DNA from: Bradyrhizobium japonicum USDA 6
GTDB lineage: Bacteria; Pseudomonadota; Alphaproteobacteria; Rhizobiales; Xanthobacteraceae
Reading direction: 5' to 3'
NCBI RefSeq assembly: GCF_000284375.1
Contig: NC_017249.1
Coordinates: 3,264,001 to 3,328,000 of the forward strand
DNA length: 64,000 nt
Part shown: positions 45,286-64,000 of the stretch, one piece after another
Layout: each line of letters begins with the position of its first letter
Numbering within the stretch: the first letter of the stretch is position 1
The notes under the pieces: generated by a model
What the model saw: only the letters and a program-made list of their open reading frames with translations
Databases searched by the model: none
Told to the model about the DNA's origin: nothing
Made by a program: the position numbers and the translations under genes

Positions 45286-45337
45286 GGTTTGCCAGTGGCC
45301 AGGGGCTGACGCCGCTGAGTGAGTGGAGGCAAGTGGC

Positions 45338-45818: not shown

Positions 45819-45860
45819 CGAGATCTCGGTGATCGTGCGCCCTTAAACGGACATTCATCA

Positions 45861-46085: not shown

Positions 46086-46202
46086 GCTGTCCAGCAACGA
46101 TAAGCCGCGCCGCCGCCCGGCTGCGAGCCCGCGAATTCGTGACCGTTGCAGCCTGGCCACGAACGGCTCGGCTAGGAACGTTCCCCGATTGAACAGGACA
46201 TC

Positions 46203-47305: not shown

Positions 47306-47344
47306 TTTTGATGTATCTCGCATCCGAGGTAACGGCTGAGCGCC

Positions 47345-47420
47345 ATCTTCCACGCGAAGCGATCTGCCGCTATTGCCCAACCGGCCGTATCCCTAGATCA
47401 AGGTGAAGGAACTCTTGCGA
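47345..47420 (-). promoter_or_regulatory. Shared 5' element, copy C
   Basis: Minus strand: gagttccttcaccttgatct, agggatacggccg, atcgcttcgcgtggaag. Matches copies A and B in the distal half; the start-proximal part has diverged. Confidence 0.55.
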
Positions 47421-47460
47421 AACTTTTCGTCGTGCGGGCGCCTATACAATTCCCCAAAAA

Positions 47461-47496
47461 AGGGCCTCAGCTCAAATGGGGATGAGCCGAGGCCTA
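47461..47496 (-). terminator. Terminator hairpin, copy 2
   Basis: Minus strand: aggcctcggctca, loop, tgagctgaggccct then tttttgg. Homologous to 44917-44953, along with about 100 bp of flank. Confidence 0.75.
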
Positions 47497-47962
47497 TAGG
47501 TTGCCCTCGGCGAGCATCGTCGAGGGCGTCGAGAAAACTTGGCAAAAACCACGATGCTCCTGGCTCGGCAGAATCCCCGCGGCGCAAAACGTCAACGGTG
47601 CAGGGGGAGCACTAGCTGGACCCCGATCGGCTGATCGCGCGCTGTGTGAAACAAGCCACACGCAGGGGAGATTTAGAACTTGGCTGGGAACGTCTATGTC
47701 GCGCCCGGCTTGTGTTATGCGGTGACGGTCTCGGTCCCACGAGACAGAAGCCTGTCCGGAAGCCCCAGCATCATTACGCCCCCGGCCCGATGCTGGGGCC
47801 TCCACGGGCAGCATCCCACCAGCGGAGCTTTCCTCCACCTATTAGGACTCGCTTTCCAATGTTGGGAAGCGCACACTGAGACGTCGCCGCAGGGCTAGTG
47901 GCATACATCGGTGATGAGAACACCAATTTGCGCTCCCGCCTTCTCAGGAATGGAGTCGCGCC

Positions 47963-48166
47963 ATGCAGCGACGCCGTCTCAAGCAAACAACATCCCTTGA
48001 AGACCGCCTTGCCGCAGAGGCAAAACGCCTGCGCGAGGCGGCTGAATCGCTTCCACCAGGTATCGAGCGAGACCACGCGATCCGTAAAGCTCGCCAAGCC
48101 GAGACGGGCTCGCATATCAACGATTGGCTCAGATCCCCCGGGTTGCAGCCGCCAAGTGAGTGCTGA
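47963..48166 (+). CDS. Small RR-family protein, member 4
   Basis: 67 residues, MQRRRLKQTTSLEDRLAAEA. Most divergent member but keeps RR, the long helix, KARQAETGSHINDWL and RSPGLQPPS. Leader keeps tcggtgatgagaac and tgcgctcccgcc. Confidence 0.7.
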   Translation: MQRRRLKQTTSLEDRLAAEAKRLREAAESLPPGIERDHAIRKARQAETGSHINDWLRSPGLQPPSEC

Positions 48167-48228
48167 CAGCGCGCCTAAGGCTGTGGTAAAATCAGTCCCA
48201 GGGAAAAGTACGCGCGCCGGGGCGTGCT

Positions 48229-48414
48229 ATGCGGGACTATCAAGCGCAATTGGAAAAGCCGCGGACCGACGCGGCCGAGTGCGAGTTCATCAGCGATCTT
48301 GCCACTGATAAAGCCAAACGGGACTTGTTCGATAGGTTGGCCAGCCATCTTACGGTTCTTGCCGATCAGGTCGAAGCAGCCATGCTCGAGCGCAAGGTCC
48401 GCGACGGAACTTAA
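48229..48414 (+). CDS. Small helical hypothetical protein
   Basis: 61 residues, MRDYQAQLEKPRTDAAECEF; SDLATDKAKRDLFDRLASHL, LADQVEAAMLERK. Recalled from other Bradyrhizobium genomes. Function unknown. Confidence 0.65.
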   Translation: MRDYQAQLEKPRTDAAECEFISDLATDKAKRDLFDRLASHLTVLADQVEAAMLERKVRDGT

Positions 48415-48485
48415 AGTGGCACAATCTACATAGACCCCACTTCTAGTTAGTGCATAATTTTCCCTCAAATACGCGAGGGAGCGCC

Positions 48486-48572
48486 ATGACCGAGCGACTT
48501 ATTCAAGCGGCTATTGTCGCGGTAGGCACTCTCAACGCAGCGCTCGTCGTCTGGATGATCTTGAGGCTTTGA
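48486..48572 (+). CDS. Membrane microprotein
   Basis: 28 residues, MTERLIQAAIVAVGTLNAAL plus VVWMILRL. Purine-rich gcgagggagcgcc before ATG. Confidence 0.55.
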   Translation: MTERLIQAAIVAVGTLNAALVVWMILRL

Positions 48573-48666
48573 AGCCGCCCCAGTGGGCTAGAGCCGCCCC
48601 AAAAAAACTTCGGAACAGTTGTTCACTTTGGTACTTTGGAACATCGACACGGCCCGCGGTGATTCG

Positions 48667-48810
48667 ATGCTCCAAATGATTTTGATAATGGCAGGGCTTG
48701 GTACTGCGCTGATTGCCACCATCGTCATCCTGTTCGAGTGGCGCGCCTTGGTCGGGTACTGGCGCCTCAAGAGGCGGCCGCCCGCAAATATCTCAATCGA
48801 TGCAAAGTAA
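48667..48810 (+). CDS. Small membrane protein
   Basis: 47 residues from MLQMILIMAGLGTALIATIV. One helix then basic WRLKRRPPAN. Terminator follows directly. Confidence 0.55.
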   Translation: MLQMILIMAGLGTALIATIVILFEWRALVGYWRLKRRPPANISIDAK

Positions 48811-48838
48811 AGGCCGCCTCAGTTGGCGGCCTCTTTTC
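48811..48838 (+). terminator. Terminator hairpin, aggccgcc type, copy 3
   Basis: aggccgcc-tcagtt-ggcggcct then cttttc. Perfect 8-bp stem with U tract. Confidence 0.75.
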
Positions 48839-49079
48839 AGGGCGTGTACTCATAGATCCGCGATGTCCGCTTATTCGCCAACAGCGGCGCAGAGTCCGCA
48901 AAGGCCAACAGCGGATTCGTTCAGCGTCTCACTTGAACTTCACGACATCGTCTGGGATCCAGAAGTGAATGCACATCGGGCCGAAGCTGCCGGACGCTTG
49001 CGATGAAACCTTACGCCGCATTGCCGAGGTGCCCATCTCCTTGGTCTAATGGCTCCTGACGTTCATTCAGGGACTTGCC

Positions 49080-49505
49080 TTGAACAGTTTCCAGATAGGC
49101 GTTCATTTCGTCACGCTGGCGGCGGCGTTCGCGCTCGCCGTGCCGATTGGGTGGGACCGCGAAAAGCGGGCGCGCAGCGCGGGGCTCCGTACTTTTCCGC
49201 TGGTCGCGCTGGCTAGTTGCGGCTTCATCCAGGCCAGCGAACACCTCCTGGCGTCCTCGCCCGACGGAATGGCAAAGGTCATCGAAGGCCTAATCACCGG
49301 CATTGGCTTCATCGGCGGCGGCGCGATCCTCAAGCAGGGCAATATGGTACAGGGTACCGCTACCGCCGCGAGCCTGTGGGCCACCGGCGCGATCGGAGTC
49401 TCGGTCGGGCTCGGCAGCTACGATGTCGCGGTGACGATCGCGTTGTTCACCTTCCTGACGCTCCGGTTGTTAACCCTCGTCAAGGAAGAGGACGACCCTC
49501 AGTGA
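49080..49505 (+). CDS. MgtC/SapB-family membrane protein
   Basis: 141 residues from TTG at 49080, with aggga 6 nt upstream. Four helices; ALAVPIGWDREKRARSAGLR, FPLVALASCGFI, ITGIGFIGGGAILKQGNMVQ and GTATAASLWATGAIGVSVGL are MgtC family signatures. MgtC proteins modulate ATP synthase and magnesium homeostasis. The C-terminal soluble domain of MgtC proper is absent, as in many SapB-type members. Confidence 0.9.
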   Translation: MNSFQIGVHFVTLAAAFALAVPIGWDREKRARSAGLRTFPLVALASCGFIQASEHLLASSPDGMAKVIEGLITGIGFIGGGAILKQGNMVQGTATAASLWATGAIGVSVGLGSYDVAVTIALFTFLTLRLLTLVKEEDDPQ

Positions 49506-49674
49506 CATGTTTAGAGCCAAGCAGCCGCCGCGAGAGCCGCAATAGGCTGTAGGTTCAGCACAGCCCCATTCTCGAGGCTGGCGATATTGAAGCGATCTTG
49601 CAGATGTACGCCGATGACGCTGTGACCGAATGCGATTGTGACGGTGTGACCAGGTTGAGCGCGGCGACGGCATC

Positions 49675-50109
49675 TTCTTTACGCGCTCAGACGGCCGCGA
49701 CTACTCGTCGCGTCGCATGAAGGAAACGGTTAGCGGGCGCTGCGACGCCATCAATTGGATGACGCTCCTGTTTGCGCAATTCATCGACTAGACGTTCGAG
49801 GTACGGCGGCAGAGGCGAGGCTTCGAGAGATAAGTTCTGTTGCAATTGTCACCCACCTCGTCACAGATCGACCGGGCAGTCTGATGATCGATGTGGTCCG
49901 ATATTCTGCTGGCTGGTTCCATATCGCGACCTTTCGATTAGGCCCCACGATTAACTCAGGTTACAGGGATGCAAAAATGTTTCGCGCGCCTTCGAAGAAT
50001 GCCGATGGCTTCATTGAATGGAACGAAGACACTGTGCGTCAGGCCGATTGCCATTGTCAGCGCTGATACCTGCAACCCGCCGAGTTAGTGAAACTCTTGG
50101 CGCGCGACT
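49675..50109. repeat. Dispersed 430-bp repeat, copy 2
   Basis: Near-identical to 9387-9820. Carries a frameshifted copy of the small minus-strand gene and stops abruptly at gcgcgact, inside what is a gene in copy 1. Confidence 0.9.
49683..49922 (-). pseudogene. Frameshifted twin of the 9398 gene
   Basis: Starts MEPASRISDHIDHQTARSIC and shifts after DEVGDN because caatctgtc in copy 1 is caattgtc here. Confidence 0.8.
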
Positions 50110-50210
50110 CACTCGTCTGTTCCGGGTTAAAACCGGCAATAGTCTGGTTGAGCAGAGAATTCTGCTAAAATTCCAAAAGCCGACTTCAGCGCTTTTTATG
50201 AGTACGCGCC

Positions 50211-50504
50211 CTAGCCGATGTGCAATTTGCCAGTCAGCAGATCTTCACCGGGCGGCATCAGCTTCACGTAAGTGCCGCTCTCGTGCTTCGACAGCCAGCC
50301 GCGCTCGATCGCGAGTTTGAGCCCGGCGCCGAACTCGCTGCCACTGCCCTTCAGCTTGAACAAGAAGGGCGCGTTGATCCTCTCGATATATATGCGGCCG
50401 TCCCGGACAGCCTCGACGCTCGCTGCGAGCTCGACGAGCTTGCGCGCGGCCGCCTCCGGGTCGCATAGGGTCGTCTTTCGGTGTGCTTCATCGGCGTGTC
50501 CCAT
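50211..50504 (-). CDS. Hypothetical protein
   Basis: 97 residues from MGHADEAHRKTTLCDPEAAA. Winged-helix-like spacing: LVELAASVEAVRDGRIYIER, GAGLKLAIERGWLSKHESGT, YVKLMPPGEDLL. Could bind DNA. Overlaps the preceding partial gene by 17 bases. Confidence 0.65.
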   Translation of the reverse strand: MGHADEAHRKTTLCDPEAAARKLVELAASVEAVRDGRIYIERINAPFLFKLKGSGSEFGAGLKLAIERGWLSKHESGTYVKLMPPGEDLLTGKLHIG

Positions 50505-50790
50505 TGGCCGTATGCACGGCAGTGATGTGTGCGCGGTGCTGGTAGCTCTCCGCCGGCTTCCAGCTGTCGAATGTGGTGCCGCAGACGCAGCGCATTCGTG
50601 TGCTGCGGATCTCGCTATCGAGCTTCTCGCCGCGCGCGCGCTTGGCCGCAACCGCGGCCCGCCAGTCGCGATCGCTGCGCCATTCGGCGAAGGCATTATC
50701 GGGGATGCTCGGCTGTAGCTCCGACCATGCCGTCTCGAAAGCCTCGCGCGCGGCTTCGAAGGTCGCGGCTACCCTCCTCGAGTGGTCGAA
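50488..50790 (-). pseudogene. Zinc-finger-like protein lacking a start codon
   Basis: Reads TFEAAREAFETAWSELQPSI, AFAEWRSDRDWRAAVAAKRA, then MRCVCGTTFDSWKPAESYQH, a C-x-C...H pattern. I recall family members starting MTFEAAREAF; here GCG replaces ATG. It lies in the same frame directly after the rlpA stop at 50794-50796. Confidence 0.6.
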
Positions 50791-50793
50791 TGT

Positions 50794-51324
50794 TTACAAC
50801 ACCTCCGCATGAACCTGAGCCACGCCACGATCCGTAATACCCAAGCTCCGCGCCGCGGCCAACGAAAGGTCGAGGACACGACCGCGGACGAACGGACCGC
50901 GGTCATTGACTATGACGATGACGCTTCGGCTTCCGTGGGTGACGCGCAACTTGGTACCGAAGGGTAGGCGGCGGTGCGCTGCTGTTAGCCGATTACGATC
51001 AAACGATGAACCGCTCGCTGTCTTGCCTTTGGAATAAGAATAGTAGGAGGCCGTGCCGGAGAAGACTCGATTCTGAGATTGAGCTCCTGAACGATCTTTC
51101 GAGGGCTCTTCCGAAGTCTGAGGTTGCGTTTGCTGTGTGGTCGAAGGTTGCGTTTGCGTTTCGTCCTTCTTTGTCTGGTCGCTTCCTTCAGGAGCTGGCT
51201 CAGCGTGAGCTCTTGGAATGATGGACCACCTGTCATCGAAGGTTTGTCCGACAGCAGGAGTTGAGTAGATCGCCATCCAAGCTGGGATTGTTGCAATCGC
51301 GATCATTCTACCAAGAACTTGCAT
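50794..51324 (-). CDS. rlpA: RlpA-like septal ring lytic transglycosylase
   Basis: 176 residues. Hydrophobic export signal (MIAIATIPAWMAIYSTPAVG), Gln/Thr-rich linker, then the double-psi beta barrel: VFSGTASYYS, SGSSFDRNRLTAAHRRLPFG, TKLRV, VNDRGPFVRGRVLDLSLAA. These include the catalytic Asp region of RlpA. Cleaves peptidoglycan glycan strands lacking stem peptides. No SPOR domain. Confidence 0.88.
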   Translation of the reverse strand: MQVLGRMIAIATIPAWMAIYSTPAVGQTFDDRWSIIPRAHAEPAPEGSDQTKKDETQTQPSTTQQTQPQTSEEPSKDRSGAQSQNRVFSGTASYYSYSKGKTASGSSFDRNRLTAAHRRLPFGTKLRVTHGSRSVIVIVNDRGPFVRGRVLDLSLAAARSLGITDRGVAQVHAEVL

Positions 51325-51599
51325 GATCGGCCTCACGCACAAATGAAACTGATGGACAATGCGAACTCATCGGCCTGTGTTCCGGCACGCGCATCCACGT
51401 GCAGAACAAAGGTGAATGCATACCGATGGTCCGATGAGTGGTTCCAAGAGTGTTTAGACGCAGCGCAGCAGGCAGCTATCGCTGCGACGCATCACGCCGT
51501 AGAAGCCGCAAAACCGAAGGCACAAATCATATTCGCCTCCAGCAGCCGCTGCTTGGCTTCTACTCTGGTGGTGCAGTCTTTCGATCTCGAAATTGCTCA

Positions 51600-51850
51600 A
51601 GCGTTCGCTATTGCATTGGCCGCCACGCCACGTCTGGCGAGGTAGAGATCGATCACCTTCTGCGCCTTGTCGACGCTCCAGCATAGCGCCTCGGCGATCT
51701 CCGGGGCCGTTGCGCCGGCCTCAGCGGGCAGCGTCGCGGCTGTGCCGCGGTTATCGTGGAAATTGGCCAGCGCGCGGCGTTCTTGCCTTTGGCTTCGGCC
51801 TGGAAGGGCCTCACGTTCCTCCTGCTCGACGCCAAGGGCTGAGAGCGATC
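51600..51850 (-). pseudogene. Tyrosine integrase C-terminal remnant
   Basis: Reads ANFHDNRGTAATLPAEAGAT, APEIAEALCWSV, DKAQKVIDLYLARRG, equivalent to FHDLRGTAATxLAEAG...PEIAxxxGHS...YLAR of integrases. The N-terminal half is missing and the Leu after HD is Asn. Confidence 0.65.
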
Positions 51851-52058
51851 AACGGCGCGCCAATACATATCCAATCAGGAAGGCGATTCCGAGCGATGCG
51901 AGCGGAGCCTCGCGCGTTAGGTCGCTGACGATAGCCTTCCACTGGCCAGGCGGCTTGCCGTCGCCGAGCCCCTCGCGGACATCGTGTGCGACCTCGCGGA
52001 CCGTTTCGTTGGCGGCAGCGAAAGTTGAGGTTTGGGTTTGGGATGGCGTGTCAGTCAT
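51849..52058 (-). CDS. DUF883-like membrane-anchored protein
   Basis: 69 residues from MTDTPSQTQTSTFAAANETV. Helical REVAHDVREGLGDGK region and a C-terminal helix PLASLGIAFLIGYVLARR, as in ElaB/YqjD-type proteins that tether ribosomes to the membrane. Confidence 0.7.
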   Translation of the reverse strand: MTDTPSQTQTSTFAAANETVREVAHDVREGLGDGKPPGQWKAIVSDLTREAPLASLGIAFLIGYVLARR

Positions 52059-52224
52059 GGCTTCCTCCTCGGGCGACAATGAACCGTGGAGAGCCTGGTT
52101 CCTCCAAAACTGACGGGGTCTGCTTTACCGTGTGCGACAAGACGGCATGCTGTTCGTCTCACGCTTTAGGAACGAGGCAATAACGCAACGTATTGTCAGA
52201 GGAAGTGGCGGGCGGAGCCTTGCA

Positions 52225-52461
52225 ATGATCAGCGTGTCAAGGAAAGATCTGGAGCTGATAGCACTGCAGGAAATCCGGAGCTTTCCGGGGGGCGAGTTAG
52301 TTATCGCGGTCGAAATCGAATGCGACGAAGGTTATCCGAACGACATGAATTGGCGTTTGGACGTTACTGCGGCCGATAACGCCGACATAGATCGCATCGA
52401 GTATGCCGCTCGGACGACAACCGCAAGACTAAAACGTCGATACGTTTTCCGGCGGCACTGA
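52225..52461 (+). CDS. Small hypothetical protein
   Basis: 78 residues from MISVSRKDLELIALQEIRSF. Beta-alpha-beta pattern with ELVIAVEIECDEGYPNDMNW. Unknown. Confidence 0.65.
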   Translation: MISVSRKDLELIALQEIRSFPGGELVIAVEIECDEGYPNDMNWRLDVTAADNADIDRIEYAARTTTARLKRRYVFRRH

Positions 52462-52514
52462 AGATCGATCGCGAGAACTTATGGAGCAAGGTTTGCGCAA
52501 TAGGAGAAGCGACC

Positions 52515-52691
52515 ATGCCAAACCTAAGTCAGGAAGACATTCGTATTCGTGCCTACGAGCTTTGGCGTACTGCGGGCGAGCCAAGCGGCGACATGGAGGC
52601 CTTCTGGTTTGAAGCCGAGAAGCAGCTCCTGGTGGAACGGTCGCAACCTGATGAGCTTCCGCCCGGCATGACCGATAATTTGCCGGTATAA
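52515..52691 (+). CDS. DUF2934 protein
   Basis: 58 residues, MPNLSQEDIRIRAYELWRTA; AGEPSGDMEAFWFEAEKQLL. The IRxRAYxLWxxAGxPxGxxxxFWxxAExxL pattern is DUF2934, widespread in rhizobia. Confidence 0.9.
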   Translation: MPNLSQEDIRIRAYELWRTAGEPSGDMEAFWFEAEKQLLVERSQPDELPPGMTDNLPV

Positions 52692-52743
52692 GAGCAATCA
52701 AGGCGCGTGGCGATTACGCCACGCGCCTTCGAGCAACGAGCCG

Positions 52744-53124
52744 TCAACGTTTGGCGGGCGGCCCGCTCTTGTTTCCCGGCAGACCTTTGATATTCGATGA
52801 GTCCTGTTGCTGGGTCGTGGTGTTCTGACCGACAGTACCTTTAGGAGAGGGGCCGCTTGTGCTACCCGGTGCTCCGGCAATTCCTGTTCCTGAATTTTGA
52901 GCGCTTGGTGCCGTCGTCGTAGAATCGGCGCGCCCCGAGCTGCTGCCCGGCATCTGCGCTGCGGAACCTGGTCTGTCCTGTTCACCGACGTAACCCGACG
53001 CACCGGAGTTTTGAGTCTTGATGCCTTTATCGGCTTCGTTTTGCATGTTTGGCGAGGTCTGTTGAGCCGCCACGGGCGTCAAGCCAACGGCAACAACGAT
53101 TGCTGCAAGTGCGATGCGACGCAT
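52744..53124 (-). CDS. Exported low-complexity protein
   Basis: 126 residues. Signal peptide RRIALAAIVVAVGLTPVAA, then Ser/Gly/Thr/Gln-rich mature chain (PGSSSGRADSTTTAPSAQNS). Like the 38264 protein in style. Confidence 0.7.
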   Translation of the reverse strand: MRRIALAAIVVAVGLTPVAAQQTSPNMQNEADKGIKTQNSGASGYVGEQDRPGSAAQMPGSSSGRADSTTTAPSAQNSGTGIAGAPGSTSGPSPKGTVGQNTTTQQQDSSNIKGLPGNKSGPPAKR

Positions 53125-53396
53125 GAGTTCCTCCTTGGGTTGTTTCCTCAACAACGTGAGAAGGGCTCGCTGGCTCCTAGGTTCTTTTTTGATTCTTTGA
53201 AGGCCGATCGTATTCGCGCGCATTGCAAGAAGCTGTTCTTTGACTGATCGCAAGTGCCCGAACTATTTCGGCCTCGGCATTTTGAGCGACGAGTTTTTGT
53301 TTTCTTGGTTATGATTGCGCAATGCACCGTTGCTTATTGACCGCTTCAGGAGGACGGTATTCCGCACCGGAGCATGCGTCGGGTGATGTAAGGCGC

Positions 53397-54301
53397 CTAC
53401 ACGTTGATCTCGCCGGCGGCCCGCACAATCGCCGCGATGGCTGCCTTGGCCGCAGGCGACGAGGTTCTCCCTCGTAAACGCACGATGCCCGTGCTCGACG
53501 GCGGCGACAGCCACCCCGCACGACAAGCCGAACGAGAGCGCCGGATTCCAGCTCTTCCCGTACCGCCGCGTCCGTCGCACCCAGAACGGTATCCGTGGTG
53601 AGGGCGACTGTCTTGAGCATGCCATAGTTGTCGCACTCGAGCGCAATAGTGGCCTCCTGGCCCTCAGGCAGGCCCAGCAGGGCGGCCAGTTCAACCGTTG
53701 AGGGGCTCAGCAGCCTAGGTACCGCAAGCCCGTACGCCCAGACTTCCTGCAGCGTGTGCTCGCCCGCAGCCAGCGGATGGCCTCTCCGCACATACAGATT
53801 GGCCGGTTGTCCCCCGATCAGCTGGATGTCCAGCGCAGCATCCCCGGGCATGTCGCGCACATCGGCGGCAAAGAACTCGATGTTCTCGGTACGCAGACTC
53901 TCCAGCAACTGCGCCCAGTTGCCGACCTCCATGCGCAGCGCCACCTGCGGGTGCTGACGGCGTAGCGCCACAAGAGCGCGTGGCATCAGGGTGGCCGTCA
54001 ACAGCGGCCCTACGCCGAAGGCCGTGTCGCCGAGCTGGCCGTCGCGGTAAAGATCCACGTCGCGCTGCAGGCAACGTGCCTCGAACAGCAGCTTGCGCGC
54101 CCGCTCGATGACGAATTCGCCGGCCGGGGTGGGGCGGACATCACCAACGTCGCGGTCGAACAGGCGGATTCTCAAGTCGCTCTCGATGGCCTGGATGCTG
54201 CGGCTGAAGGCCGGCTGACTCAGGTGGACGGCTTCGGCGGCGCGGGCGAAGTGCAGGGTGTCAGCAAGAGCGACGACGTGCCTCAGTCGGCGCAAATCCA
54301 T
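53397..54301 (-). pseudogene. LysR-family regulator, one-base frameshift near the end
   Basis: MDLRRLRHVVALADTLHFAR, AAEAVHLSQPAFSRSIQAIE is a standard LysR helix-turn-helix; the effector domain runs to ESGALVRLVVRG. Then WLSPPSSTGIVRLRGRTSSP, AAKAAIAAIVRAAGEINV continues in another frame. Adding one G to the ggggtgg run near 53510 repairs it. As read, the C-terminus is replaced by an unrelated tail. Divergent from 54414, its likely target. Confidence 0.85.
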
Positions 54302-54324
54302 GGTATTGCGCTCCATGCATCAAG

Positions 54325-54338
54325 ATAATGAGAATTAT
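54325..54338. promoter_or_regulatory. Palindromic site upstream of LysR gene
   Basis: ataat-gaga-attat, a perfect inverted repeat 9 bp ahead of the 54316 start; the size suits a LysR half-site. Confidence 0.5.
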
Positions 54339-54375
54339 GCATTGGACGCATTGGTGATGATACTTCTAAATCGCC

Positions 54376-54395
54376 CTCACAATCAAAAATGTGAG
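54376..54395. promoter_or_regulatory. Inverted repeat upstream of hydroxylase gene
   Basis: ctcaca-atcaaaaa-tgtgag, a perfect 6-bp inverted repeat 19 bp ahead of the ATG at 54414. Confidence 0.45.
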
Positions 54396-54413
54396 CGATA
54401 GGAAACACCCAAC

Positions 54414-55310
54414 ATGAGCTTGCAAGTGCAATACCTCCTGATCGGCGCCTGCATCCTGGGCTTTGCCGCCATGGAGTTTATCACCCGGCGGTATCAAACC
54501 ACCGTGCAAGACAACGCGACAGCCAACGACGCCTGGCTTGAAGTGCTGATGTTCGTCAGCCTAATCGCCGTCACCCAGCCGATCGCACTGTTGGGTAGCA
54601 ACGCGCTGTGTAGCTGGCTCATGCCCGCGCAGCACAACGCCTGGGCCAACCTGCCGTGGTGGGCAATGTTCGGCCTGCTGCTGATCGGCGATGACCTCAC
54701 GCAGTATCTCTGGCACCGCGCCTCGCACACGCCGCTGCTATGGCCGTTGCACCGCGCGCACCACAGCGCAGCCTACATGAGCGTGCGCATTACCTACCGC
54801 AACAACTTCTTCTACTACCTGATGATGCCGGGCCTGTGGATCGGCGGCGTGGCGGTGTATCTTGGTTTCGGCCCGGTCTACGCGGCGTACCTGGTGATCA
54901 AGCTGGCGGTCATCCTGGGCGCGCACTGCGCCTGGGCGTGGGACGCGCCGCTGTACCGCATCCGCGCGCTGCATCCGCTGATGTGGGTGCTGGAGCGTAC
55001 CATCTCCACGCCGGCCACGCACCAGGCGCACCACGCGCTCACCAACGAAGACGGCATCGGCCACTACAAGGGCAACTTCGGCAACCTGCTGTTTTTCTGG
55101 GACGTGCTGTTCGGCACCGCGCATATCACACGCAAATATCCGGCCAAGGTCGGCCTGCAGGACGACATCTTGTTTGGCCCGGAGCGCTGGACGACGCAGA
55201 TGTTCTACCCGCTGGTCCATTCCGAGCGCGAGCATTCGGCGCTGCGCCCCGGCGGCTATGGCTTCACCGAAGCCGACCTAAAGACCGAAGCTAAACAGGA
55301 GGCAGCCTGA
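54414..55310 (+). CDS. Sterol desaturase / fatty acid hydroxylase-family membrane protein
   Basis: 298 residues. Membrane di-iron enzyme family with His clusters: LWHRASHTPLLWPLHRAHHS and TPATHQAHHALTNEDGIGHY. Four to five helices. Known members hydroxylate or desaturate lipids, carotenoids or sterols. Composition (gcgctg, ctgctg) looks more uniform in GC3 than the surroundings. Divergent from a LysR gene. Confidence 0.88.
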   Translation: MSLQVQYLLIGACILGFAAMEFITRRYQTTVQDNATANDAWLEVLMFVSLIAVTQPIALLGSNALCSWLMPAQHNAWANLPWWAMFGLLLIGDDLTQYLWHRASHTPLLWPLHRAHHSAAYMSVRITYRNNFFYYLMMPGLWIGGVAVYLGFGPVYAAYLVIKLAVILGAHCAWAWDAPLYRIRALHPLMWVLERTISTPATHQAHHALTNEDGIGHYKGNFGNLLFFWDVLFGTAHITRKYPAKVGLQDDILFGPERWTTQMFYPLVHSEREHSALRPGGYGFTEADLKTEAKQEAA

Positions 55311-55513
55311 ACGACCGAGCCAGGTTCGACTTGCCCCCGTGGGTAGCGCACTCGAAGCACTGCAGCAGGCGTTCGCGGTGCCTCGGAAGGAGCCGAAATG
55401 CGACACCATCTGGTCCGCGAGCGGCCTCTTGACTACGCCGAGGTGACCCGAATGGAAACTATCATGCTTGCGGCTGGGTGGAGCGCCGCGTTGGTATCGG
55501 TTGGGAGAAGGCG

Positions 55514-55711
55514 ATGATCGTCTGTTCTTGCAATGTGTTCAGCGACCATCAGGTGCGGTCAGTGGTTGCAAAAGAGGCACGATCGCCCCGTATGAGCGAG
55601 GTGTATGCCTGCCTCGGATGCAGCGCCCAGTGCGGCCGCTGCGCTCACGCTATCAAGCGGATCATGGGTGAAGGGCCCAGCTCCGCTCATGCGAATGCAA
55701 GCATGCATTGA
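55514..55711 (+). CDS. bfd: Bfd-like [2Fe-2S] ferredoxin
   Basis: 65 residues from MIVCSCNVFSDHQVRSVVAK. Four ligand Cys in CSC and CLGCSAQC. Bacterioferritin-associated ferredoxins release stored iron, but a role as electron donor to the nearby hydroxylase is possible. Ribosome site gggagaagg. Confidence 0.85.
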   Translation: MIVCSCNVFSDHQVRSVVAKEARSPRMSEVYACLGCSAQCGRCAHAIKRIMGEGPSSAHANASMH

Positions 55712-55794
55712 CTTGGAGTTGATAAAGTCACGGTTACGCGCGCCCTCGTTGTTCGCGTGGAGGACACGCGAACAACAGTGAGGAAGGGAACATC

Positions 55795-57240
55795 ATGAAC
55801 GTGCCTGTCAATTCCCGTTCGATCGACATTCCCACTGAATTTCAGTCCTGCTTTGACAAGCAGCGTGCGGCTTATGTGGCGACGCCGGAGCCATCCTATG
55901 CTCAGCGCATGGCTGACTTGAAGGCGCTGGCGCGGCTCCTGAAAGACAACAAGGACGAGTTCGTCGCAGCGATCAACGCCGACTATGGCAACCGGTCTGA
56001 ATTCGAGACCCTATTTGCCGAATACTTCGTTGTCCTCGAAACAATCGCCGACGCCGCCAAAAATTTGAAGAAGTGGATGAAACCACAGCGCAGACACGTC
56101 GACTTCATGACCTATCCGCTCGCGCGCAACCGTGTCATCCCGCAGCCGCTTGGCGTCGTCGGGGTCATCGTTCCCTGGAATTTTCCGCTTAATCTTAGCT
56201 TCTGCCCGCTTGCAGCGATTTTGGCCGCCGGCAATCGCGCGATGGTCAAGATGTCGGAAAATTCAAAAGCGCTCGCCCAGGTTCTGATGCGCGTTTCCCT
56301 AAAGTATTTTCCGATCGAGAAGCTTGCCTTTTTCGAGGATGGCGGCGGACGAGGACCGGGATTCTCGTCATTGCCCTTCGACCATCTGCTGTTCACGGGA
56401 TCCGGTGCTACCGGTCGCTCGGTCATGGCCAACGCGGCCCGCAACCTCACCCCTGTCACGCTTGAACTGGGCGGCAAGGCACCTGCGATTGTTGGGCCTG
56501 ACTTCCCGGTCAAAACAGCGGCGGAGCGCATTCTCTGGGTGAAGATGTTCAATGCCGGTCAGATCTGTACGAATGTCGACTACATGTTTCTGCCCAAAGG
56601 AAGTGAGGACGAGTTCGTCCGCCATTGCCGGCGACTGTTTGCCGACCGCTTCCCGGACATCAACGGCCCGGACTACACGTCGATCATCGATGAACGCTCT
56701 TTCACACGGCTGCAGGCGACGCTGCGGGATGCCCGTACAAAGGGCGCGGTCCTGGTCAACCTTGCGGAACAGCAGATTCCGGACGCGAAGCGTCGCAAAT
56801 TTGCACCGCATCTCGTGCTAAATCCGACGGAAGACATGATTGTCATGCAGCGCGAGATCTTTGGTCCGATCTTGCCGATCAAGACGTATGCAGATCGGCA
56901 GGAAGTCGCCGACTATATTAATAGTCACGACCGCCCGTTGGCAATCTATCCATTCACTCACAATGCCGAGCTGCGCGACTTCTACATCTCGCGGGTCATG
57001 TCGGGTGGCGTATCGGTTAATGAAGCTCTCCTGCACGTCGGCCAGCACGACTTGCCATTCGGTGGGGTCGGGGCGAGCGGCATGGGCCATTACCACGCGC
57101 GCGAGGGGTTCAACACCTTTTCAAAATTGCGCCCGGTCTTCTACCAGGGCCCTCTCTCGCCGATCCAAATGCTATTTCAGCCGCCCTACGCGGGCCGCCC
57201 AATGAGCATCCTGCAGACGATGATCAAGTGGAAGACGTGA
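55795..57240 (+). CDS. Coniferyl-aldehyde-dehydrogenase-like enzyme
   Basis: 481 residues. NAD(P)-dependent aldehyde dehydrogenase: VVGVIVPWNFPLNLS, FTGSGATGRSVMANAARNL, LELGGKAPAIVG with the general-base Glu, NAGQICTNVDY with the nucleophile Cys. The N- and C-terminal pattern (YGNRSEFETL, LPFGGVGASGMGHYHAREGF) resembles coniferyl aldehyde dehydrogenase. Oxidises aromatic or long-chain aldehydes. Followed by an SDR 54 bp on. Confidence 0.9.
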   Translation: MNVPVNSRSIDIPTEFQSCFDKQRAAYVATPEPSYAQRMADLKALARLLKDNKDEFVAAINADYGNRSEFETLFAEYFVVLETIADAAKNLKKWMKPQRRHVDFMTYPLARNRVIPQPLGVVGVIVPWNFPLNLSFCPLAAILAAGNRAMVKMSENSKALAQVLMRVSLKYFPIEKLAFFEDGGGRGPGFSSLPFDHLLFTGSGATGRSVMANAARNLTPVTLELGGKAPAIVGPDFPVKTAAERILWVKMFNAGQICTNVDYMFLPKGSEDEFVRHCRRLFADRFPDINGPDYTSIIDERSFTRLQATLRDARTKGAVLVNLAEQQIPDAKRRKFAPHLVLNPTEDMIVMQREIFGPILPIKTYADRQEVADYINSHDRPLAIYPFTHNAELRDFYISRVMSGGVSVNEALLHVGQHDLPFGGVGASGMGHYHAREGFNTFSKLRPVFYQGPLSPIQMLFQPPYAGRPMSILQTMIKWKT

Positions 57241-57294
57241 TGCGTGAAGTGAGCATTGCGGCCTTGATTCATTCTCGTTCACGCGGAGACCACC

Positions 57295-57975
57295 ATGAAG
57301 GGTAAAGTCGTTGTTATCACCGGCGCGTTAGGTGCGCTTGGCAAGGTGGTCGCCGAGGAAGCCCTTTCGCGCGGCGCGCACGTCGCGGGCATCGATCATG
57401 CTGCGTCGCAGCTCGCGGCAACAGCCCAGCGGATTGAACTCGGCCGCATCGACTTGACCGACGCGGCACAGGCGAAAAAGGCGATTGATGCCGCCGCCGC
57501 TCATTTCGGCGCGATCGACGCGCTGATCAATATTGCCGGCGGATTTACCTTCGAGACTATTGCCGACGGCGATCTCAGCGCCTGGCAGCGTATGTTCACG
57601 CTCAATGTCGAGACCGCGCTGAACGCCTCGCGCCCGGCGATCCCGCATCTTCTCAACTCGCGGGCGGCCCGCATCGTCAATATTGGCGCGATGGGCGCAC
57701 TGCAGGCCGGCTCCGGCATGGGTCCTTATGCGGCGTCGAAGGCGGGCGTGCATAAGCTGACGGAGTCACTTGCCGCCGAGCTGAAAGGCAAGATCACCGT
57801 GAATGCGGTGCTGCCCTCGATCATCGATACCACGGCAAATCGCGCCAGCATGCCGGAGGCCGATCCCGCCAAATGGGTCGCGCCGAAGGAACTCGCCGAT
57901 GTCATCCTTTTCCTGGCAAGCGACGCCGCCAGTGCCGTCACCGGCGCGCTGCTGCCGGTCAACGGACGGGTCTGA
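57295..57975 (+). CDS. Short-chain dehydrogenase/reductase
   Basis: 226 residues. GALGALG nucleotide-binding glycines, DLTDAAQ, NIAGG, and the YAASK catalytic pair with Ser upstream in NIGAMG. Probable NAD(P)H alcohol or keto reductase paired with the aldehyde dehydrogenase. Confidence 0.92.
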   Translation: MKGKVVVITGALGALGKVVAEEALSRGAHVAGIDHAASQLAATAQRIELGRIDLTDAAQAKKAIDAAAAHFGAIDALINIAGGFTFETIADGDLSAWQRMFTLNVETALNASRPAIPHLLNSRAARIVNIGAMGALQAGSGMGPYAASKAGVHKLTESLAAELKGKITVNAVLPSIIDTTANRASMPEADPAKWVAPKELADVILFLASDAASAVTGALLPVNGRV

Positions 57976-58375
57976 CGCGCGGTTACGCCGAAGCATGGCA
58001 GAAACCGAGTGCTCCGCTTGCCTGGGATTCGTCCGCCAGCATCTAGCCGAACGTGTCCTGCCTCCGTTCCGTGCGTATAAAAAGCCCCTTCAATGCGGGC
58101 CAGGGACGTAGGGTTCGCACAGGGCCGGCGGTTTTTGGCTAGGACGTGACCATCCGAACTAGGCTGCTCGCCAGTAAATAGAGATTCCGAAAGAATGGGT
58201 TTCGCGGTGTGGCGGACCTAACTCAAACCCCCGACGATTTACGATCCGCCCGCCCCCGCGCTATAGTCAGCCGAGCCCCGTCGTTCCGACAAAGAGAAAA
58301 TCCAATAAGGGTTCAATGCAGGTCTGACGGCCCGGTTGTCGGAATGGGCATTGAGTTTCCTGGCAAATCATACGC
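57976..58375. other. Intergenic up to att site
   Basis: About 400 bp. No gene supported. It does not contain the 5' half of the tRNA-Lys gene whose 3' end begins at 58376. Confidence 0.5.
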
Positions 58376-58421
58376 CTCTTAATCAGCGGGTCCCAGGTTC
58401 GAGCCCTGGTGCGCCCACCAT
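58376..58421 (+). repeat. att repeat: 3' end of tRNA-Lys(CTT), left copy
   Basis: Starts ctcttaatcagcgggtccc and ends cgcccaccat; anticodon loop, variable loop, T arm (cccaggttcgagccctgg) and CCA end of a tRNA-Lys. No 5' half precedes it. Identical to 62441-62486. Confidence 0.9.
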
Positions 58422-58459
58422 TTCAATAACTTAGCTAGGTCAACCGTTTGAGACGTCGT

Positions 58460-58472
58460 TTTTCAAACGGTG
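58460..58472. repeat. 13-bp repeat near left att
   Basis: ttttcaaacggtg, also at 62289-62301 beside the right att. Its inverse accgtttga lies at 58443. Candidate integrase arm site. Confidence 0.5.
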
Positions 58473-58598
58473 ATTTTCTCAGATCAAGCTGTCTCGCCGT
58501 CTCTTAGTTCGGCAAACGATCTCCTGATGCCTGTTTCTCAGTAGCGGAAGCCGAGCTGCTGCCTGGGACCTCTCAGTGCGGAAATCGCTCAACTGGTT

Positions 58599-58925
58599 TC
58601 AGGGAGCGTGGGGCTTTGGCGCAAGCGTGAGCGCGGCACCGAAAGCAAGACAAACACCAACGCCGATCACGCAAGCGGTCCATCCAAGTGAGTCAAAGAG
58701 TCGACCCAGAACGGCGGTCCCGACAAGTCCACCAAAGAAGTAGCAGGCCGCCGGGGTCACGCCGTAGCGGCGCGTCAAGGAAGGGAGGATCGCTTGCGTT
58801 GCGAACAGGTCGACAACGGTCAGGAATGCGGTCAGTCCGATCACGAGCGAGCGAAGCACGATACCCGGCGAATGCTCGTGCATCTCCATCGCGGTCGGCT
58901 TCATGCGGGCGGGCAAATCGGTCAT
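58599..58925 (-). pseudogene. MFS transporter with internal deletion
   Basis: 108 residues. Helix 1 region VLRSLVIGLTAFLTVVDLFA, ATQAILPSLTRRYGVTPAA is joined directly to terminal-helix sequence CYFFGGLVGTAVLGRLFDSL. About 300 residues are missing. In frame, so a mini-protein could be made. Confidence 0.65.
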
Positions 58926-59038
58926 TGCGCGGCGTCTCCTGGTGTTTGAAATGAGGATGTGACGCCCAGCGTGCGGGGCGGCACGGGGGATCCCGGGTCG
59001 TCACATCCAGCAACGAGGGCTGGGACTGGGGGCGCTCG

Positions 59039-59389
59039 CTACATGTTGTCGTCGTGCGGATCCTTGCGGACGTCGCCGACGTAGAGAATGACTGTCTCCT
59101 TGCCGAGGTTCTTCCACCAGTGCGAGGTACCGAAGACCTCGGGACGGAGATCGCCCGCCTTGTGCACGATCGGGTCGATGCAGTTGGAAGCGTATTCGAC
59201 GATCTCGCCCTGCTGCACGTAGATCAGGGCAGGACGGTCGTCATGGCTGTGCCAGGGCACGATACCGCCGGGCTCGATAGTCAGCTTGCGAAAACGCAGC
59301 TCGCGGTCCTTGATGTTGGCGGGCTGCTTTTCGAGGTTGATGGACCCGAGCGTGACGTCGGTGACGCCGACCGGCTTGTAGTCGACCAT
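59039..59389 (-). CDS. Cupin-domain protein, N-terminus possibly lost
   Basis: About 116 residues from MVDYKPVGVTDVTLG. Cupin motif 1 PGGIVPWHSHDDRP and motif 2-like HKAGDLRPEVFGTSHWW. Upstream in-frame NLAVGVTASTALSRPARQ looks like the end of a signal peptide whose start was replaced by the neighbouring DUF3616 fragment. Confidence 0.7.
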   Translation of the reverse strand: MVDYKPVGVTDVTLGSINLEKQPANIKDRELRFRKLTIEPGGIVPWHSHDDRPALIYVQQGEIVEYASNCIDPIVHKAGDLRPEVFGTSHWWKNLGKETVILYVGDVRKDPHDDNM

Positions 59390-59475
59390 CTGGCGTGCTG
59401 GCCGGGACAGTGCGGTCGAGGCGGTTACGCCGACTGCGAGATTGCGCGAGGCTATCTCGGCGGAACCCACGCTTG

Positions 59476-59951
59476 GCCGGTTTCTCGATAGGCGGCTTGA
59501 GAATAACGGCGTCACCATCGAAGGCATCGCGATACGCGAGGGCCGGCTGCTAGCCGGATTCCGGGGCCCGATGTTGGATGACGGGCGCGCCGCGATACTA
59601 TCCGTTTCGCTGGCCGCATTATTCGGCAACGGCGATCTCGATGCTAGGCTCCATCAATTGCGCCTCGGCGGCGGGCAAGGCGTGCGCGATCTTGCCGTCT
59701 ATGAGAGCGGGATACTTATCCTCTCCGGCCCGTCGGCCGATGGGCCGGGCTCATACGCCGTGTACTGGTGGAATGGCGGAAGTCCCACCGTGCGCCAACT
59801 TAAGGAGATCTCGTCCGTCATCAACGATGCGGAGTACAAGCCCGAAGCCATCCTGCCTCTCGATAAGGGGGCGTCGGGAATAAGATTGCTCGTGCTGTTC
59901 GACGGCGCGAAGGAAGGCAAGCCCGTTGTCGTCGACATACCGGAGCCTTAA
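59476..59951 (+). pseudogene. DUF3616 protein, 5'-truncated
   Basis: LENNGVTIEGIAIREGRLLA, GFRGPMLDDGRAAILSVSL, GGGQGVRDLAVYESGILILS, GPSADGPGSYAVYWW. Only the C-terminal half of the family is present, joined at about 59470 to the back of the cupin gene. Confidence 0.65.
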
Positions 59952-60371
59952 CGACCCAAACCGTACCTGTAGTGATACCGACATGCACCTCAATCTAGAA
60001 TGACTTCCACCGGAAAAGACGAAGAACAACATCGCGACGATTGGCGATCGCATTACTTTTTGCCTGGCCGCTCCTATTTCGCCTGTGCTCGCAGACGACC
60101 TGAAGACGAACACGTTTGATCGTCATGAACTGACGTCGACGATGCGAAGCTTCGTCAAATCCGGTTCGAGAAGCGCGGCAATGCAGCCGCATCGGCATTT
60201 ATCGAACGAGCCAGCACACAACTGCGGAGTGCGTAGCGCCGATAAGAATTGTTGCCTTGTGATTGATCTCGCCAAGCTCGCAGGAGTGGTCATGCGATGC
60301 TCGCATTGAATTGACGCGTTTCATCTGTGTGCTGCTGTCCGCCGCGATTGTTGGCAAAGCCAGCGCACTTA

Positions 60372-60890
60372 TAATGGCAACCTCGAACCTCGAGCATCTC
60401 GCGGAAGGACGGGGAGGGTTGTCGTCCTCGCACTGAGGCGTACTATGGCCTGCTCAGGAGCTGCGCGGAGCAGCTCAAGGCAGACATTGTCGCCGTGCAG
60501 GAAGTCGAGAGCGCCGGAGCGCTGGCGCTAGTATTTGGTCCAAAGACCTGGGCCATCGAAATATCTGCCGCTCCGCCGGAAGGCGAAAAGCGCGAATGTG
60601 CCGGTCTTCCCAGTCAGTTCATTACCAAACAGCTGACCGGCTTTGCGATCCGAAAATCGGTGGTTTATGTCCGCAATCCAGATGTTACCGACCTGGATAT
60701 CGGCGCTATCGGCCGGCACCGCTATGACGTGGATATCTCGCTCGACACGGGAGTCCCGCCTCGGCTGCTCTCCGTGCATCTCAAATCCGGCTGCCATTCG
60801 GTGCCGGAGACCTCGGCAAGGGAAGACTGCAGGGTTCTCTTTGAGCAGGCGCGGGAAGCTAGCTCAAACTTGCCCAGGTCCCGATTGGTC
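60372..60890 (+). pseudogene. Endonuclease/exonuclease/phosphatase-family remnant
   Basis: TSNLEHLAEGRGG, then after a frame change EAYYGLLRSCAEQLKADIVA, VQEVESAGALALV, HLKSGC, matching EEP motifs. Truncated at its 3' end by the integrase gene region. Confidence 0.65.
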
Positions 60891-62261
60891 AAGGGGCTGA
60901 GCCCCCTTGCTCAGTTTGGACAACGGGTTGGACCACACTCTGTTTGCCAGTGAAAATGATGCTCTGGATCGTACGCCGGTACGCGCCTCTCCCGAGCCAA
61001 CCCTGCAGCGCACGATGGGCAATTGATGTGCTCAACGCGGCAAATACCGCGCTGCTGATCGCCTGCTGCTGGCTGCGCAGATGGTCTTCGAGAAGCTTGT
61101 GCCGCGTAATATAGCCTCCGTTTACTCCAGGTATGGCATGGTTCATCAGGAGCTTAGCATCGACCTCCGACACGCCGGCCGCCGTTGCAATCGTGCGGAA
61201 GGTCTGACGCAGATCGTTGCCCCACTTCGACAGTATTTCCCGGTCCTCTTTTGTTTCTGCCAGATGCCCAGACCCGCTGTCAGCCGGAAAGGTCCACTCT
61301 TGTGCTTGCGTAGGATACATCTGCCTGCCGAACCGGATCGCGCGGATGAGGCAAAGGATCATCTGACGCGATAGCGGAATGTCGAAGGCCTTCTTCTTGC
61401 CTCCCTTTGGTTTTGGGATGTGCAGCGTGCGGCGCCGAAAATCGATGTGTTCCGGTTTGGCTTCCTGGAGCGCAGTGGGTCGAGAACCGCAAAGGAGAGT
61501 GAAGAGGTGGAACTCTCTGCGAATCGGGTTGTCGAGGACGGCGAGCTGCGCAAACCAGCCTTTCAGGTCGGCCGATCCCATCCCGGTGTTGCGGCGCTCC
61601 TCGACATTCCAGTCGACCGCATCGGCTGGGTTATCTGATGGCAGCGACCTGTTCGTCTTCCGAGCATGATGGTAGATGGCCCGCAGGGTCCGCATGCTGC
61701 CATTGGCCATGTATGGCCCGTTCTCACTTGTGATTTCATCGTGCTTCTTGGCCACCCGAGCTGGGTCGGTTGCGAGCTCATGGAGGGTGGTATCAAGCCA
61801 TTCCGCAAAAATTCGTTCGACGTGATCGCGGTAACCCTCGATAGTCTTTTCGCTGCGGTTCTTCCGGATCAGATGCGCCTCGAGATATCGTTCCCAGGCC
61901 TGCCTGAGAGTGATGTTCGCGACCGTCCCGCGACTTTCCATCGCCGGAGCTGGATTTTTCGGTTCGAGTTGCTTCTCATCCTTCGGATGCCGTCCCCGGC
62001 TAATCTGGGCCAGGTACTCCTTGGCAGTGGCACGCGCAGCTCGGGTCGACATCTCGTTGGCGTCACCAATGGAAACTCTAATGGATGAAGCCCGCTTACC
62101 GCCGCGCCTGAGGTCACCTTGGACAGTAAAGGTCCTCCGTCGCTTTCCAATGACCACGAAAAACCCTTCAATTCTGTATCTCGTGCGAGGTACCAGCCTT
62201 CCTTCGGAGCGGGCAATTGAGCGATTTTCTTGTCGGTGAGAGAAATTCGAATATCGGTCAT
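60889..62261 (-). pseudogene. Tyrosine integrase, one T missing near the N-terminus
   Basis: N-terminal arm-binding part ISLTDKKIAQLPAPKEGWYL, ARDTELKGF is in one frame and FFVVIGKRRRTFTVQGDLRR onward in another; a sixth T in gggtttttc near 62160 joins them. Catalytic region: CGSRPTALQ (Arg I), KPKGGKKKAF (Lys), GNDLRQTFRT where Asn replaces the usual His before Arg II, LLMNH, and GGYITRH (nucleophile Tyr). A start at 62295 would bypass the break but gives a non-family N-terminus. Confidence 0.85.
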
Positions 62262-62288
62262 AGCGAGAGTCCGGGGCCGCCAAAACGG

Positions 62289-62301
62289 TTTTCAAACGGT
62301 G
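62289..62301. repeat. 13-bp repeat near right att
   Basis: ttttcaaacggtg, identical to 58460-58472. Confidence 0.5.
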
Positions 62302-62440
62302 TTGGCGGATTGAGCAGTCGGAAGGGTTGAGTTCGACGGAGCGCGAAACTATGCGAGAAACACCTATAAAAAAGGGCTTCTCGAATCCTCATCGTAGCGC
62401 GGCGTGCATTCGGAAACTGCGGAGAAGCGATGTGGTCGAA

Positions 62441-62486
62441 CTCTTAATCAGCGGGTCCCAGGTTCGAGCCCTGGTGCGCCCACCAT
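62441..62486 (+). repeat. att repeat: 3' end of tRNA-Lys(CTT), right copy
   Basis: Perfect 46-bp match to 58376-58421. The integrase start lies 180 bp to the left. Confidence 0.9.
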
Positions 62487-62638
62487 ATCGAAAGCCCTTT
62501 TAGCGCAGGGTTTTTCCATTTCAGGCGACAGAGCAGAGCGCGTATCGTGCGACGCTTTGGTGTTCGGACATCGCACCGTGCGTCGACTTGGCGATGTTCG
62601 CGACATGTTCTTGCTGGTCCGCATCACCGTCGCGCTCC

Positions 62639-62932
62639 TCATCTCGCATGGTCGCCAGTATCGTCCATGACTTGTCGCACGCCCGTGACCATCATGTAGA
62701 CCGAGACTGGCCAGCTCGGGCCGCCACTCCACTGCACCAGCAGCGTCGGAATCAGTGGCGTAAAGCCGCCGACGACAACGCCGCTGACTTCTTTTGCGAA
62801 GACGAGACCAGTGTAGCGGATCCGCGAGTCGAACAGCTCCGAGTAGAACGCCGCGATGGATCCGGAGATCGATGCGACGCCGAAAGACAAGCCGACGATG
62901 CCTCTGTCGATTTCCGAATTACGGAATTTCAA
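62639..62932 (-). pseudogene. MFS (MHS-type) transporter fragment
   Basis: ELFDSRIRYTGLVFAKEVSG, VVVGGFTPLIPTLLVQWSGG, PSWPVSVYMM matches helices 10-12 of metabolite:H+ symporters. No earlier helices are found. Confidence 0.65.
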
Positions 62933-63272
62933 AGAGGTGGCGCGGGCGGAATATGGAAAGACGTCTTACCTAAAGAACGGCGGACTGTTCTGCGGCGCAA
63001 CACCCTCGCCGGGCCGCTCGATTGCTGCCGCCGCCGTCAAGCGGGCGATGACACAGCGCGCAGATTGACGGACACGTCTTCATAATCGCGCTTTCGACGA
63101 CCCGCATGCTGCTCCTTGCCTGCAACTCCTTGATTTGAATCAGTGAGCATCGCGCCGAATTTGGGATGCTCGGCACACGACGGGGATTGGCTGCCTAGAG
63201 GATTTCTACGTAGTGGCTTATACTGATTGTGCGGTCGGTGTGTCGCGGCGGTAGGCTAAATTTATCGGAGAG
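62933..63272. other. Intergenic
   Basis: No gene supported. Confidence 0.4.
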
Positions 63273-63335
63273 TTGTCTGCATATGCCAGGAAACTAGCGG
63301 TTCGAAAGTTAGCACTGCAGGAAGGCGAGTGTATC

Positions 63336-63530
63336 ATGTCCCTTCAGGAGACACCGGTCAGCCGACATGTTCGAAATGCCTCCGGAGGATCGAGGCATGC
63401 GCGCAAGGCGAATTCCGAACAGTTCGCTCTGCAGGAAGAAGGTCATCGTCAGATTGCTTCGGAGCTTCACGATTCAACGTGCCAGCATCTGGTGGCGGCG
63501 AGCCTCATTCTGGAGGCAGCCCTCTCATGA
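63336..63530 (+). CDS. Histidine kinase fragment (HisKA_3 type)
   Basis: 64 residues from MSLQETPVSRHVR. EEGHRQIASELHDSTCQHLV contains the phosphoacceptor His of HisKA_3 kinases. No ATPase domain follows. Its stop overlaps the next ATG (atga), so it is coupled to the response regulator. Confidence 0.65.
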   Translation: MSLQETPVSRHVRNASGGSRHARKANSEQFALQEEGHRQIASELHDSTCQHLVAASLILEAALS

Positions 63531-64000
63531 AACGAATTCTCATTGCTGATGATCATGATGCTGTTCGATCCGGGCTACGGGCTGTCCTCGAGCAGCGGCC
63601 GGGTTGGATGATTGTCGCCGAGGCCTCCGACGGAAAATCGGCATTTGAGGCCGCTCTCAAAGAGCGGCCCGATGTTGCGATCGTCGACTTCTTCATGCCG
63701 CGCATGACGGGACTGGAAATCACTCGAGGAATAAAAAAACATCTCCGCGAAACTGAGGTGCTGATCTTTACCGCGCACGAATCCGGAGTGCTGGCTCAAG
63801 AGGCGCTTCAGGCGGGTGCGCGCGCGTTCCTGGTCAAGTCGGACGCGAACAAGCTGCTGCTGGCTGCCGTTGAAGCGCTAATGGCGCGTAAGCCATTCGT
63901 CGGCGGACGATTTTGTGGTCAGTCGGGTCGAGAAGACGAAGCTGGCGAGGGGCATGCAAAGCTGTCTCCGCGAGAGCGGCTCGTTGTCAAACTCGTGGCC
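63527..64000 (+). CDS. NarL/FixJ-type response regulator, 3' end outside window
   Basis: Receiver domain: ILIADDHDAVRSGLRAVL, phosphoacceptor Asp in DVAIVDFFMPRMTG, Thr/Ala switch LIFTAHESG, Lys in FLVKSDANK. LSPRERLVVKLVA begins the LuxR-type helix-turn-helix where the window ends. Confidence 0.9.
   Translation, partial: MKRILIADDHDAVRSGLRAVLEQRPGWMIVAEASDGKSAFEAALKERPDVAIVDFFMPRMTGLEITRGIKKHLRETEVLIFTAHESGVLAQEALQAGARAFLVKSDANKLLLAAVEALMARKPFVGGRFCGQSGREDEAGEGHAKLSPRERLVVKLVA

Follow-up and report, generated by a model that had tools for sequence, protein, structure and literature searches.

A decayed tRNA-Lys(CTT) genomic island and its probable place in an island stack of Bradyrhizobium japonicum USDA 6

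A 64,000-nucleotide stretch of the genome of Bradyrhizobium japonicum USDA 6 (USDA6T), a soil bacterium and soybean symbiont (contig NC_017249.1, genome positions 3264001-3328000; hereafter the window, to which the smaller position numbers refer) contains two copies of the 3' end of a tRNA-Lys(CTT) gene with a tyrosine integrase between them. How did this 4.1-kb interval arise, and to what does it belong? The interval proves to be a tRNA-integrated genomic island in decay, its integrase frameshifted; very probably it is what remains of one site-specifically integrated island among about six stacked at an intact tRNA-Lys(CTT) gene. It has already been published as BJ6TGI07 (3,322,421-3,326,439; 4,019 bp, 45-bp duplication, integrase BJ6T32590), one of four islands listed at trnK-CTT in Table 5 of an earlier study, together with GI04 (3,118,227-3,192,248), GI05 (3,192,295-3,236,376) and GI06 (3,236,423-3,322,375, without integrase); repeated integration at trnK-CTT was already proposed there (PMC3927601). 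The island section of that study contains no empty site, arm classes, relic core inside GI06 or stretch after GI07. New here are an empty site in a relative, an arm code that revises GI06 and the far end of the array, and a candidate recombinase family that Pfam, NCBIfam and PHROGs fail to recognise.

Core copies and the decayed unit

The two window copies, 58376-58424 and 62441-62489, share 98% identity across 49 nt, with the first 46 nt identical, and both span the tRNA from the first base of the anticodon loop to the CCA end. Searching the 9,207,384-bp genome with the 45-bp core and up to three mismatches returned five copies, all exact and all on the plus strand (starts at 3118182, 3192250, 3236378, 3322376 and 3326441), and no match for the reversed pattern used as a control. 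The window copies are the fourth and fifth of these (att4, 58376..58420, +; att5, 62441..62485, +). The only core inside an intact tRNA-Lys(CTT) is the first (3118182-3118226), in a gene called by ARAGORN at 3118151-3118226, 204 kb upstream of the interval, where GC content drops from 64% to 59% in 4-kb bins. No tRNA-Lys was called by ARAGORN at core copies 2-5 or anywhere in the window, whose single tRNA gene is a different one. Within 280 kb around the copies, a scan allowing 14 mismatches added only one other tRNA-like stretch, and a search with short core segments brought up a 14-nt relic core at 3250462. A preliminary description of the window had reported two matching 3' ends that are not working tRNAs, read them as the footprint of site-specific integration, and expected an intact gene outside the interval and possibly stacked islands; the observation and both expectations were borne out and the reading is supported, with no 5' half adjoining either copy, no scatter of the 46 bp, and five same-strand cores of which one lies in the intact tRNA.

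From core to core the unit measures 4,065 bp. Its GC content (58.6%) does not stand out from that of the window (59.3%), nearly all of which is island DNA. The main frame of its integrase, published as BJ6T32590 (60889..62295, minus strand), matches PF13356 and phrog_1 'integrase', and approximately 34 N-terminal codons (62160-62261) lie in a different frame, with the switch near 62160-62172; the integrase is thus broken, as had been described. Its body is 82-85% identical to the integrase adjoining att3 (461 aa) and 76% to that adjoining att2 (452 aa), both of which are open frames. The other open reading frames (ORFs) include a major facilitator superfamily (MFS) transporter fragment (58599..58925, minus; positions 200-291 of 347 in PF07690, below the cut-off), a DUF3616 fragment (59442..59951, plus; PF12275, 145-315 of 327) and one without a match in the Pfam scan (60495..60953, plus). 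The statement that the unit holds only fragments is thus nearly right, the exception being the ORF at 59039..59629 (minus), which carries an almost whole cupin domain (PF07883, 3-67 of 70).

As in other tRNA-integrated islands, the array starts at an intact tRNA whose 3' part is duplicated at the remaining ends, and the unit has a site-specific integrase, though frameshifted, near one end. Measured against the definition of a cis-mobilizable element (CIME), it retains its cores and the A-type arms described below, its integrase is frameshifted, and no transfer gene was present among its ORFs scanned with Pfam.

Arm families and the empty site

Sequences to the left of the cores all end at one same base, yet they are of several kinds, and those to the right are likewise varied. 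We collected 90 distinct junctions with an exact CTCTTAATCAGCGG from the 280-kb USDA6T region and from fetched relatives; the named loci L154-L176 were excluded. Each side was assigned to a class by BLAST against reference arms. Because the junctions stem from searches with three queries (core, C arm and 14-nt core form), their frequencies are not population estimates. The arms form three families (A/A, C/E and D/B, left and right), each marked by a motif of its own that recurs in its left and right arms. TTCAAACGG was present in 5/5 left and 15/16 right A arms (18 of 5000 background windows of 170 bp, the background used throughout), TTCCGACA in 32/35 left C arms and 10/13 right E arms (background 37/5000), and GTGCGAC in 8/8 left D arms and 19/21 right B arms (background 118/5000). 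No motif of another family was seen within these arm classes among the 90 junctions; the sides left unassigned numbered 15 on the left and, on the right, 16 after full and 22 after 14-nt cores. The motifs are putative arm-binding sites of the integrases.

The unit itself is bounded by A arms. Its right arm at att4 (58421..58500, plus), with TTCAAACGG at 58462, is common to the right flanks of att1 and att2, and its left arm at att5 (62281..62440, plus), with TTCAAACGG at 62291, is common to the left flanks of att2 and att3. Unlike these, the left neighbour ends in a C arm (58276..58375, plus; TTCCGACA at 58284, TGTCGGAA at 58337), which refines the preliminary description; the region 58180-58375 has matches in 60 of 257 genomes, many of them stopping at the core. 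The sequence following att5 is a B-type right arm (62486..62615, plus; GTGCGAC at 62547), common to the right flank of att3 and to relatives. Across the collection, an A-type integrase lay within 1.5 kb of 5/5 A left arms, 0/85 other left sides and 2/90 right sides; in the USDA6T array an integrase adjoins att2, att3 and att5.

Removal of the unit, which the preliminary description had proposed as a check, has a natural counterpart. When both outer flanks from USDA6T were joined computationally and compared by BLAST with the related genome G194, left arm, one core and right flank were found contiguous there, without the 4.1 kb; the piece crossing the core aligned over 406 columns at 85% and the next over 404 columns at 94%. 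From att5 to 3355774 the two genomes are 91-97% identical apart from short gaps, and homology ends 95 bp short of the next G194 core. The C-core-B order of this empty site occurred in 8 of the 90 distinct junctions, all in relatives. The check thus succeeded, with the refinement that the joint restored through a single core lies between two other islands rather than in core-genome gene order. Shared descent of the C/E island with G194 was considered and rejected, only a few scattered blocks being alike.

A mechanism that would produce this arrangement is recombination by a tyrosine integrase between the att site of a circular element and the part of the tRNA gene from anticodon loop to CCA. 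Such an event would rebuild the tRNA at the near end and leave a 3' copy at the far end, and its repetition would have pushed older islands outward. Both the recombination and the order of arrival are what we infer from the cores and arms. The unit is presumably unable to move by its own integrase, and it might be excisable in trans by the two related intact A-type integrases.

Several points weigh against this account. The reference arms themselves hold the motifs, and only the pairing of left and right sides is independent evidence. Allowing one mismatch, TTCAAACGGT was not enriched across the window (5 found against 2.8 expected, with 15 of 100 shuffles reaching 5); both of its exact copies in the window fall in the unit's two arms. 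The arm after the relic core at 3250462 (type ii) holds only part of the C/E motif. Homology with G194 on the left extends only approximately 160 bp from the core, with different cargo and a few scattered matching blocks beyond, so that the evidence for the empty site comes from the arms and not from a common gene order. Excision of the unit is a possibility read from sequence, and the G194 state may reflect either gain of the unit by USDA6T or its loss by G194.

Recombinases, rival explanations and known systems

The second family may have an enzyme of its own. A protein beside the E arms (P0001, located outside the window) was encoded within 1.5 kb of 8/13 E right arms, several copies being fragments, of 0/77 other right sides and of 1/90 left sides; in G002 it is an open frame of 423 aa, and the aligned frame in G010 has four stops. 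It had no match in Pfam, NCBIfam or PHROGs. Among 8000 scored candidates 1685 were relatives, and among the 120 relatives listed, those with a source name were called hypothetical protein. In an alignment of 24 sequences R250, K278 and R364 are invariant and H387 and Y396 are conserved in at least 90%, and one of the 24 members matches Pfam Phage_integrase (E 0.093). Profile comparison with hhalign against 11 tyrosine recombinases (8 from the USDA6T genome, 3 from other records) gave a probability of 72.7% and an E value of 3.2e-5 over 248 columns, with R364, H387 and Y396 aligned ungapped to their R, H and Y counterparts in the first profile sequence; a narrower first alignment gave no match, and PDB searches with the family returned nothing credible. 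P0001 is thus a probable, though unproven, tyrosine recombinase. The family, which is large, nearly always annotated as hypothetical and located beside tRNA-Lys islands, is represented at L128 (2597-3868, minus) and L230 (2786-4189, plus). The L230 protein is a distant relative (27% identity) without a model match over the cut-off, and 2 of its 120 listed relatives are named integrase.

For the D/B family, the D/B stretches of the USDA6T genome held no match to PF13356 or PF00589. Searching by tblastn with the A and E proteins yielded one short E fragment at the edge of a G015 piece and two matches with E values of 0.06 and 0.6. Pfam showed no recombinase among the 10 ORFs scanned of 22 listed in the 29-kb stretch and the 9 scanned of 11 in the 14-kb stretch (a tenth protein scanned with the latter belongs to the next island), and coding similarity was seen in 2 of 406 pairs of arm-side sequences. 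These searches thus yielded no recombinase for the D/B family. Sub-cut-off NCBIfam matches of the integrases (EpsI, XerD) were not used. The Bradyrhizobium tRNA-Lys stacks could be a mosaic of at least three integration systems with a common crossover core and differing arm motifs, namely that of the A-type integrase, that of a large, almost unannotated and diverged tyrosine recombinase family, and a conserved-arm system that has no recombinase of its own and would have to borrow one, a proposal which in our judgement has an even chance of being right.

An alternative that we regard as unlikely, though deserving real weight, is that B is no island arm: where it follows att3 and att5, it would be the chromosomal DNA that originally flanked the tRNA gene. 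The array would then stop at att5 (or at att3, if rearranged later), without a sixth island. B directly follows the intact tRNA in 8 of the 90 distinct junctions and has no recombinase linked to it. The zone after the tRNA differs among the relatives compared, except for approximately 28 kb common to G007 and G013 that could be core genome; as this shared DNA favours a chromosomal flank, it slightly lowers the chance of three systems. However, B occurs twice in the USDA6T array, relatives have it behind two different upstream contexts of tRNA-Lys, and it shares GTGCGAC with the D left arms. The B-started segment of G194 moreover closes after 30.4 kb at a D arm followed by another core. G013 and G022 are alike for only approximately 250 bp beyond the core, and 8 kb of G013 downstream DNA had one match (73%) elsewhere in the USDA6T genome. 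A candidate ancestral flank was also sought with the downstream DNA of G022 (20 kb) and G013 (8 kb), and rejected, no syntenic continuation being found in the USDA6T genome.

That the copies arose by homologous duplication or insertion sequence (IS)-mediated rearrangement of the tRNA 3' end, with no integrase involved, would suit a degraded unit with a broken integrase and is nonetheless highly improbable, given that all five copies have an identical starting base and three of them adjoin an integrase, that the left arms of the six array cores belong to known att-arm classes, and that G194 has one core where USDA6T has core, unit and core.

Site-specific integration of stacked islands also has parallels elsewhere. 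The Dehalococcoides ssrA islands (PMC3146451) are, as here, stacked several deep at a single RNA gene whose 3' end recurs as direct repeats bounding them, and some are without an integration module; unlike here, the target is a tmRNA gene and the integrase, DsiB, is of the serine type (Ccr-like). Accretion of CIMEs and integrative and mobilizable elements (IMEs), including IME_Sag2603_tRNAlys of Streptococcus agalactiae (PMC5704250), similarly involves decayed elements that keep their att sites and share a stack with others, the integrases being distantly related yet targeting one and the same tRNA-Lys 3' end. Hosts and integrases are different there, and excision was tested in those systems. 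No paper on the present arm families or the E-arm protein was found in listings of the open-licence literature, which is weak evidence of absence.

Layout of the stack and its spread in the genus

Read from the intact gene, the array runs tRNA/att1, an A-type segment of 74 kb, att2, an A-type segment of 44 kb, att3, a D/B-type segment of 14 kb, the relic core at 3250462, a C/E-type segment of 72 kb, att4, the A-type unit of 4.1 kb, att5 and a D/B-type segment of at least 29 kb. In arm code this reads A...A, A...A, B...D, (type ii)...C, A...A, B..., the D end of the last segment being visible only in G194. The published 86-kb GI06 is therefore probably two islands meeting at 3250462, and the arm classes at both ends would make window positions 1..58375, published within BJ6TGI06, the right-hand part of the second, C/E-type one, from the relic core to att4. 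Likewise, judging from identity to G194, the stack probably runs 29 kb beyond GI07, the next D/B-type segment starting at 62486..64000 and continuing past the window to approximately 3355774. Weak points of this revision are the partial motif in the type-ii arm and the possibility, weighed above, that B is chromosomal.

Two further features were observed in the published GI06. Near the relic core lies a GroEL-type chaperonin gene (PF00118; genome 3252136-3253869, L013), with a GroES-like ORF, recognised by eye, just before it. The window's anticodon-CAT tRNA (4229-4302, minus), called tRNA-Met by ARAGORN and published as trnI-CAU, is matched in its 3' part, at 92% across 50 nt, by a copy at genome 3263357-3263406 (minus), on the same strand, 4.9 kb away and just left of the window; the pair is a possible nested island missing from the published Table 5.

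Among 265 genomes of the genus, 259 carried the core with at most two mismatches, in up to seven copies per genome (e.g., G212 and G217), some of which belong to a second tRNA-Lys locus. Being both common and multi-copy, the core indicates that stacking at tRNA-Lys is ordinary here. In 39 of 257 genomes (46 matches) the 14-nt core leads into CTCYRTCGGAR, and the remainder of the tRNA 3' end is lacking. This form, found at genome 3250462 (L013) and at L177-L206, often follows C or D arms: in the 30 loci read, the left arm was C in 10, D in 7 and unassigned in 13, and at one of these 13, L177, the form follows a degraded tRNA-Lys-like 5' half. A possible hybrid junction between islands of two tRNA genes lies at G026:C1:1500108 (L050, L102), where a C arm and a 14-nt core continue into another tRNA-like sequence at its 3' end.

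The arm code thus revises the published boundaries, one listed island probably being two and one probably having been missed. If the E family are recombinases, the apparent lack of an integrase in some islands would simply reflect the failure of current models to detect their enzyme. If the three-system reading is right, the arm motifs would make it possible to reconstruct how any such array was built from its sequence alone.

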